Assembly: GCA_945873585.1 (NCBI GenBank)
Contig: CAMCDO010000005.1
Span: forward strand, 1-34,146
From: Verrucomicrobia subdivision 6 bacterium
GTDB lineage: Bacteria; Verrucomicrobiota; Verrucomicrobiia; Methylacidiphilales; Verrucolacustridaceae
DNA length: 34,146 nt
Reading direction: 5' to 3'
Positions within the stretch are counted from its first letter, which is position 1; each line of letters opens with the position of its first letter. This document shows positions 30,324 to 32,841 of this stretch, one piece after another. The position numbers were made by a program, and so were the translations under genes. Under the pieces are notes generated by a model, which worked only from the letters and a program-made list of their open reading frames with translations, had not been told where the DNA came from and searched no databases.

Positions 30324-31199
30324 ATGGCCAAGCCACTCCGAATCGGTCTCCCCTCAGGAAGCCTTCAAGAAGCCACCCTCGATCTATTTAGAAAGGCAGG
30401 CTACTCGATCGCCCGCGGCTCGCGTACCTACCGTCCGTCTATCGATGATCCAAATTTTGAAGTTCGTCTCCTTCGCGCTCAAGAAATTGCCCCCTACGTC
30501 CAAGACGGCTTTCTCGATCTTGGCCTAACCGGAAGCGACTGGATTCAGGAAACCAAGGCCAAGATTCATGTTGTTTCCACCCTCCAATTTAGCAAAGCCA
30601 CCGCCCAGCCCGCGCGATGGGTCGTCGCCGTTCCGAATCGTTCGCCCATCCGTCGTCCCTCCCAACTTCGCGGTAAAAGAATCGCCACCGAGGCCGTCGG
30701 TCTTGTCGGCCAGTACCTCGCGAAAAATAAGATTAAGGCGAAAGTCGAGTTTTCCTGGGGTGCTACCGAAGTCAAAGTGCCCGAACTTGCCGATGCGGTC
30801 GTTGATATCACCGAGACTGGCTCCTCTCTTGCAGCCAACGGCCTTCGCATTCTCGATACCATTCTCGAATCTTATCCCCAGCTCATCGCGAATCGCAAAG
30901 TTTGGACTCGTCCAACCCAGCGAACACTCATTACAAACTTAGCCATGCTGCTCGAGGGGGCCTTACGGGCTCGAGACCTTGTCGGACTTAAGATGAATGT
31001 CTCTCGTCGTTTTCTAGGTTCTATCAACGCCGTCCTTTCTTCCCTCCGCGATCCCACTATATCTCCCCTTGCCCGTGATGGCTGGGTGGCGGTGGAAACG
31101 GTTATGGAAGAGAAAATTGTTCGATCCCTTATTCCTCGTCTTAAGAAGCTCGGCGCCGAAGGTATTATTGAGTACCCGCTAAATAAGGTTGTCACCTAA
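30324..31199 (+). CDS. hisG: ATP phosphoribosyltransferase (long form)
   Basis: [95 protein letters not shown]; 291 aa with C-terminal regulatory-like domain. Confidence 0.93.
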
Positions 31200-31215
31200 G
31201 CCTTCTAGCCCCACG

Positions 31216-32841
31216 ATGTCTCTATGGGTTCAGTTAAGAAGAAGCGGAAATCGAAAATCGCGAAGCACAAGCGCCGCAAGCGCAGTCGCGCGAACCGCCA
31301 TAAGAAGCGTCTCCGCTACAAGACGTAACGTTGGGGCGCTCGGCGCTTCCTTACTTCTTGCCGCCTCCCTTCTCGCAAAAGGCGCACCTCAGCGTGCTGA
31401 ACGGGTCGATTCCGCTCTATTCTTTACCGAAGGACGGCGAGCCGACTCACTAGGATTGAGTCAACAGGCCTTTGAGGCCTACAGCAAAGCTCTCGATGCT
31501 GATCCCACTTCTCGCGCCGCAACCTTAGCCAAGGCTGGCACCCTGCTCGACCTCAACCGCTCGGCAGAATCTTTAGAGCTTCTTCAAGCGCTCCCCGCTT
31601 CGTCGGTCGATGAACCCGAACGATCCACCCTCCTCTGCCTGGCTCTCATCGGTCAAAAAAGGGGCGAAGCAGCCACTATCGCCCAACGCGATGCCCTTAC
31701 CGCTTTGGCTGGGTGGGGCAACCAAGATCCCACTCGCTTGGCACGGGTGGCGGAAGGCCTTCTTCGATCTGGCACCGCGCTCTCGCGGAAATCTCAGCGG
31801 GAAATCGCCGCCGCTGTTCTCCCTGCTTTTATCCGCGCAGCCGATCTCAATACAGGCCTAGGAGGGCTCACCTTGCGGGCAGCCGAGATTGCGCTGGTGG
31901 CAGACGATTTACCCACCGCCATCCGATATTTTCGCGAATTCGTTGAAAAGCGTCCCGAGGAGGTCTCCTTTTTAGAACAACTCGCGGCCGTGCTAATCCT
32001 CAATGAGCAATCAGCTGAAGCCGACGCTCTTCTCCGCACTGTCGAGATCGAAAAGCCCAGCCGTTCGAATCTTTACCCCGTGATGGCCAATCTCTACGAG
32101 GAGCTTAACGTTCCTGCTCGCGGCGAAATCTATCGTGTTCTCGCCCTACACACATCCGAAAAGCCCGTCCTAGCCGATTTCCTTCGCCTGGCATTGCTTC
32201 AACTTAAATTGAATCAGCCTCGGCGCGCTGGACTCACCCTAGTATCTGCTTCTCGGATTTACTCCGATTCAGTTCAATTGCTTCTGATTCGTGGTCTCAC
32301 CGAGAAAGCCCAGGATCTTATGGCAGAGGCCGCCTCGACTTTTGCTCAAGTCGAGCGCCTATCCCAAAAACGCCCGGAGATGCTTGATGCTAGCTTTTAC
32401 TATGAGTACGGATCGGCCTGCGAGCAGTCTGGCCAATCGACCCGTTCAGAAGTTGCCTTACGCAGAGCTCTCCAACTAAACCCATCTCATCACCAGTCCC
32501 TCAACTATCTCGGCTATATGTGGGCCGAACGGGGTCGAAATCTCGACGAAGCCCTCATCATGATTGAAAAGGCAGTACAACTCAGTCCTGGAAACCCTGC
32601 TTATCTTGATAGCCAAGGATGGGCCCTTTACCGACTCGGAAACCCTGCAGCGGCCAAACCCCTCGTGGAGGAGGCTCTGCGCATGGTTCCGGATGATCCC
32701 ACCCTCTTAGAACACTATGGGGATATTAATTTCCGACTCGGCCAGAAAAGCGAAGCTAAAAGTGCTTACGAGAAAGCCTTGCTCGCGGGTGGTCCCGCCA
32801 TCACCTTGCGCGACAAGATTCGGCTCAAACAGAATAAGTAA
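31216..32841 (+). CDS. TPR-repeat protein; N-terminus uncertain (ATG 31216 proposed; track uses TTG 31189)
   Basis: Strong TPR segments (AFEAYSKALDADP, EVALRRALQLNPSHHQSLNYLGYMWAERGRNLDEALIMIEKAVQLSPGNPAYLDSQGWALYRLG). Signal-peptide-like LGASLLLAASLLAKGA lies just after the nested sORF. Confidence 0.8.
   Translation: MSLWVQLRRSGNRKSRSTSAASAVARTAIRSVSATRRNVGALGASLLLAASLLAKGAPQRAERVDSALFFTEGRRADSLGLSQQAFEAYSKALDADPTSRAATLAKAGTLLDLNRSAESLELLQALPASSVDEPERSTLLCLALIGQKRGEAATIAQRDALTALAGWGNQDPTRLARVAEGLLRSGTALSRKSQREIAAAVLPAFIRAADLNTGLGGLTLRAAEIALVADDLPTAIRYFREFVEKRPEEVSFLEQLAAVLILNEQSAEADALLRTVEIEKPSRSNLYPVMANLYEELNVPARGEIYRVLALHTSEKPVLADFLRLALLQLKLNQPRRAGLTLVSASRIYSDSVQLLLIRGLTEKAQDLMAEAASTFAQVERLSQKRPEMLDASFYYEYGSACEQSGQSTRSEVALRRALQLNPSHHQSLNYLGYMWAERGRNLDEALIMIEKAVQLSPGNPAYLDSQGWALYRLGNPAAAKPLVEEALRMVPDDPTLLEHYGDINFRLGQKSEAKSAYEKALLAGGPAITLRDKIRLKQNK
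31224..31328 (+). CDS. Small basic bS22/mS38-like (AURKAIP1/COX24 domain) protein, 34 aa (not in ORF track)
   Basis: Translation MGSVKKKRKSKIAKHKRRKRSRANRHKKRLRYKT*, matching the MGSVxKKRxxK...KH+RKKRxRxNRHKK pattern of bacterial COX24-domain proteins. Confidence 0.85.
   Translation: MGSVKKKRKSKIAKHKRRKRSRANRHKKRLRYKT

Follow-up and report, generated by a model that had tools for sequence, protein, structure and literature searches.

Long genes nested in another gene on the same strand are rare in bacteria. The closest described system is that of Thermus, in which rpmH, the gene for ribosomal protein bL34, lies nested in rnpA and the two starts are joined in the sequence AUGGAUG (Feltens et al. 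2003, as described in PMC9841429), and a 2022 article calls this pair the only described bacterial case (PMC9841429). Ambiguous starts of the form AUGUG or GUGUG are found in Escherichia coli at pqiA and tamA, and the second product of pqiA is a 15-aa peptide that had not yet been seen in proteomes (PMC9841429).

The locus described here belongs to a window of 34,146 nucleotides, the whole stretch that was analyzed, taken from contig CAMCDO010000005.1 of a 1.4-Mb draft metagenome-assembled genome (MAG; 113 contigs) whose nearest relatives with a name are MAGs of Verrucomicrobia subdivision 6, among them one labelled BACL9. An open frame on the forward strand, 31216..32841, matches Pfam TPR models and would encode a TPR-repeat protein of 541 aa from the start codon that we propose, ATG 31216..31218. 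Eight nucleotides downstream of this codon, in the arrangement ATG-N5-ATG, begins a small ORF (sORF) on the same strand, 31224..31328, which lies wholly inside the TPR gene at a frame offset of +1, so that residues 4-37 of the TPR protein are coded over it. The sORF is preceded on the same strand by a gene at 30324..31199, conserved in the order, which we take to be hisG (ATP phosphoribosyltransferase) and which ends at 31199. Judging from sequence comparison, it is very probable that the interval is dual-coding, with a bS22-like ribosomal protein read from ATG 31224 and the TPR protein from ATG 31216 as a twin-start nested pair.

The product read from ATG 31224 to TAA 31328, MGSVKKKRKSKIAKHKRRKRSRANRHKKRLRYKT, is a 34-aa R/K-rich protein, and both the limits and the translation given in a first-pass annotation of this DNA proved exact on re-check. 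Of the 21 genomes of the genus, 20 carry the sORF, with 91-100% identity, and almost every genome of the order has it with 76-85% identity; this conservation argues that it is not a product of chance. Its likeness to the bS22 proteins of Flavobacterium johnsoniae and Borrelia and to mitochondrial mS38 (PF08213, COX24_C) extends to length (28-34 aa), R/K-rich composition, and the common core HKRxKRxRANRHKK, while the sORF protein has an additional C-terminal LRYKT. The best relative of solved structure is F. johnsoniae bS22 as bound to the ribosome (chain 7jil_5), which was matched at E = 3.6e-4 with the single sequence and at E = 3.1e-5 with a profile; this homology to a ribosome-bound bS22 supports the bS22/mS38 assignment that the annotation had made from sequence pattern. 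The comparison with PF08213 that it had proposed gave E = 3.6e-4 over positions 1-29 of 33, at 20.8 bits, below the Pfam cut-off of 23 bits; all 14 verrucomicrobial members matched the same model at E <= 0.01, the best at 4.8e-6. The NCBIfam equivalog cut-off of NF047430 (34 bits) was not reached by the sORF protein, which scored 14.4 bits, nor by F. johnsoniae bS22 and another ribosome-bound relative. Because F. johnsoniae bS22 (residues 2-29) likewise gives no Pfam match, and a protein of solved structure thus passes neither cut-off, the missed cut-offs do not exclude homology, and we file the product as bS22-like rather than as an NF047430 equivalog because it scores below the cut-off of the latter. 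In Borrelia, bS22, an analog of mitochondrial mS38, occupies the 16S pocket of h2, h27, h44, and h45 (PMC10618245), and the sORF product would likewise be expected to bind the ribosome.

The family in which the overlap is found corresponds to one genus, represented by 21 genomes that are all draft MAGs, and the overlap was compared in the 20 that carry the sORF; the other, an incomplete draft with 6% contamination (G012), gave neither an sORF nor a TPR match. Two records titled Paceibacterota (L066) and Akkermansia muciniphila (L068) also carry the locus of the genus, and their titles look wrong. Conservation of the sequence, of the frame, and of the start codons is directly visible in this comparison. 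The arrangement ATG-N5-ATG, with five variable bases between the codons, is present in all 20 genomes, each of which keeps the TPR frame at +1 and free of stops as far as the contigs reach, and the only indels in the TPR frame past the sORF are of 3 nt, or one codon. On a tree built from hisG and the TPR body (5.67 substitutions/site), with changes counted by parsimony, the upstream ATG underwent no change at any of its three bases, and neither did the start ATG of the sORF, while 4, 4, 9, 10, and 5 changes were counted at spacer bases -5 to -1 and 4-7 at each of bases -24 to -16. About 16 changes would be expected at the upstream ATG from the 5-6 per neutral site, and their absence has a Poisson probability of ~1e-7, assuming equal rates. 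The bases CACG (31212..31215, forward strand) directly 5' of the TPR start are also unchanged in the 20 genomes. The invariant block is therefore CACGATG, seven contiguous sites and not the ATG alone, and part of the constraint may have a cause other than the start codon. CACG is not a Shine-Dalgarno motif and was not found before bL20, and no GGAG-like motif was seen 5' of either ATG; 14 of the 21 gene starts listed in the window, both twin starts included, are without a Shine-Dalgarno motif. In one genome (G004; L039/L069) the 3' end of hisG looks deleted before CACGATG, which may be an assembly error.

An open TPR frame is by itself weak evidence, because a +1 frame over the sORF stays open in 61% of simulations in which random synonymous codons are drawn for the sORF amino acids at local usage. 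What rises above chance is the invariant upstream ATG together with the fixed frame in 20/20 genomes. Acidic residues in the overlap are also rarer than simulated (0-1 versus a mean of 1.8).

Outside the genus, the TPR gene of other families of the order commonly starts at a GTG or ATG 15-18 nt past the sORF stop, with no constant frame, and one related genus has both +17 and +18 starts, a spacing that varies by 1 nt. A scan of 384 genomes of the class, confined to an ATG at the -8 spacing, found the sORF motif in 282 and ATG-N5-sORF in 20, all within the genus; the remaining 262 class genomes that carry the motif all lack an ATG at -8. Stops are absent from the +1 frame across the sORF in 20/20 genomes of the genus versus 8/30 order-level relatives. 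Since the relatives start past the sORF and none has the -8 ATG, the TPR start appears to have moved upstream over the ribosomal gene in the genus. Homologous TPR genes starting cleanly downstream of the sORF, which the first-pass annotation had regarded as decisive against dual coding, thus do exist in other families; they represent the ancestral state, however, and do not refute the overlap in the genus. An sORF was found near 72 of the 79 TPR loci examined, and by this measure the neighborhood of the two genes is old. Class-wide (L061-L139), a bS22-like gene adjoins a TPR gene across much of Verrucomicrobia, the TPR start again commonly standing 15-18 nt past the sORF stop, and this closeness hints at translational coupling. 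One locus (L079) has a TPR frame that stays open back into the sORF and contains a GTG at -38 relative to the sORF end; it may be a partial overlap of independent origin.

If both frames are translated, each should constrain the other. Each third base of an sORF codon serves as the second base of a TPR codon, which leaves the majority of TPR changes within the overlap silent in the sORF, and the earlier suggestion that the sORF shapes the odd R/S/A-rich N terminus of the TPR protein is right by virtue of this offset. At silent sites of the sORF, 40 changes were counted against 63.7 expected from amino-acid-matched bL20 codons (P = 0.002, 14 genomes), and nine relatives lacking the overlap had no deficit (35 versus 36.5, P = 0.43), although a six-genome subset of this control leans in the same direction (18 versus 24.4, P = 0.09). 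A test with hisG only was confounded by expression level and was replaced by these comparisons with bL20 and the non-overlapping relatives; in a pairwise silent-site comparison with hisG the groups were not clearly separated. The synonymous constraint for which the annotation had proposed a test was thus seen relative to bL20, but with the control subset leaning likewise it lends moderate support to dual coding.

The TPR frame, from 31189 or 31216 to 32841, is open throughout, and there is no canonical start directly 3' of the sORF, both as the annotation had read them; the first in-frame ATG, GTG, or TTG past the sORF is TTG 31456, +127 from the sORF end. For 17 relatives of the genus, the alignment with the TPR protein begins at residue 1 or 2. 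Directly 3' of the overlap, the TPR frame encodes the hydrophobic segment of a putative secretion-type signal (31336..31377, forward strand), where hydropathy is highest at residues 42-54 and a basic n-region with a net charge of +9 precedes them, and a hydrophobic peak behind a basic n-region recurs in 20/20 genomes of the genus at net charges of +5 to +10. The 27 codons past the sORF have 3.9/2.6/5.8 changes at positions 1/2/3, which is a coding pattern, compared with 2.0/1.1/6.1 in the TPR body. TTG 31189 was rejected as a start common to the genus, since five genomes (G007, G015, G018, G019, and G020) have the frame closed 5' of -128, with the TTG lying outside it.

It could be argued that translation of the TPR protein begins past the sORF, at a late or non-canonical codon, and that the upstream frame is open simply because the sORF is R/K-rich, a reading to which the cheapness of an open frame (P = 0.61) and the position of the TPR start just past the sORF in relatives both lend themselves. 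We regard it as very unlikely, since no start-like codon position 3' of the sORF is common to all 20 genomes. The first downstream canonical starts lie at +28, +40, +49, +61, +73, or beyond, differing by genome, and two genomes (G002 and G003) offer none until +409 nt past the sORF, a site within the conserved TPR region. This reading would also give no reason for a -8 ATG that never changes or for the constant frame.

A possible RNA hairpin is located at the end of the sORF (31325..31355, forward strand), with an inner stem of 31334-31339/31343-31348 and an outer stem of 31325-31330/31350-31355 that takes in the sORF stop codon. The inner five pairs are kept in 19-20 of the 20 genomes, mostly through G-C to G-U changes, the outer stem has several double changes, and the pair counts exceed those of shuffled and slid controls. 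The folding energy has a mean z of -1.8 across the genus but a z of +1.0 in the window itself, where the hairpin is not more stable than shuffles, and Rfam gave no match in 30900-31600. Hairpins near the same place occur in some other families, where a GTG start can lie in the loop. By eye, a terminator was rejected for want of a T run 3' of the stem, as was a mimic of 16S h45, which is not kept in TGA genomes. The hairpin may tune termination or TPR translation. It might also aid a +1 ribosomal frameshift near the sORF end through which the TPR protein is made, a route compatible with the inclusion of the sORF stop in a conserved hairpin and with the +1 relation in 20/20 genomes; it seems highly improbable, however, because there is no common slippery site, the codons before the stop vary (ACG TAA, ACC TGA, ACT TGA, GCT TGA), the -8 ATG would not be needed, and hairpins also stand at the same place in some relatives with separate genes. 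That CACGATG serves the sORF mRNA as a regulatory element or as initiation context, and that its ATG is no start codon, would account for seven contiguous invariant sites rather than three but is scarcely credible, given that this ATG invariably lies in frame with a 540-codon ORF that otherwise lacks a shared start, that the codons past the sORF evolve as coding sequence, and that the ATG is absent at the same place in relatives. Of the four routes to a TPR start that had been listed, ATG 31216 with dual coding stands, its alternative TTG 31189 falls with the closed frame of the five genomes, and the non-canonical, late-TTG, and +1 frameshift routes leave the -8 ATG and the fixed frame without a reason.

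Under dual coding, the bS22-like ribosomal protein would be read from ATG 31224 and the TPR protein, with its export signal, from ATG 31216 in the +1 frame through the whole ribosomal gene. Most likely, ribosomes would enter at one site and settle on either of the two AUGs, 8 nt apart. Because both AUGs cannot be occupied at once, the two products would be made from one mRNA in competition. In the ancestor of the genus, the TPR gene probably gave up the start that relatives have 15-18 nt past the sORF stop and acquired another ahead of the sORF, whereby the ribosomal gene became part of the TPR N-terminal coding region. The resulting 37-residue basic extension could serve as an extended n-region of the signal peptide, through which the TPR protein would be exported.

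The likeness to Thermus rpmH/rnpA is that a short basic ribosomal gene is nested out of frame, that its neighbor is N-terminally extended, and that two AUGs are closely spaced; in the genus, too, the small gene lies in another frame with the larger one starting just upstream, and both starts are conserved in 20/20 genomes. In the E. coli cases, two overlapping frames are similarly opened from neighboring starts, but the second product of pqiA is a peptide, whereas both frames of the genus encode conserved proteins. The Thermus starts are 1 nt apart behind one Shine-Dalgarno motif, while in the genus 5 nt lie between them and such a motif was seen at neither ATG; the gene pair and the phylum are others, and the outer gene of the genus, unlike that of Thermus, has a secretion-type signal past the overlap. 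Without a shared Shine-Dalgarno motif the locus is a variant of the Thermus kind and not the same case, and the absence of that motif, the 8-nt spacing, and the secretion-type signal are what is new in it. A fuller account, in which this is a second, independent bacterial case of a ribosomal gene overprinted by its neighbor, works without a Shine-Dalgarno motif, and makes the amounts of exported TPR protein and ribosomal protein depend on each other through competition of two AUGs, with the hairpin tuning the ratio, is offered tentatively and is somewhat doubtful as a whole. Gene callers that bar nested genes would lose either the ribosomal protein or the true N terminus of the TPR protein. 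The pair would provide a system for testing how ribosomes are partitioned between AUGs 8 nt apart without a Shine-Dalgarno motif. As the non-overlapping state is visible in relatives, the origin of the overlap by gain of an upstream start can be traced. Next to the Thermus pair, it would be the second case of a nested ribosomal gene, in another phylum and another gene pair, kept over 20 species of freshwater Verrucomicrobia.
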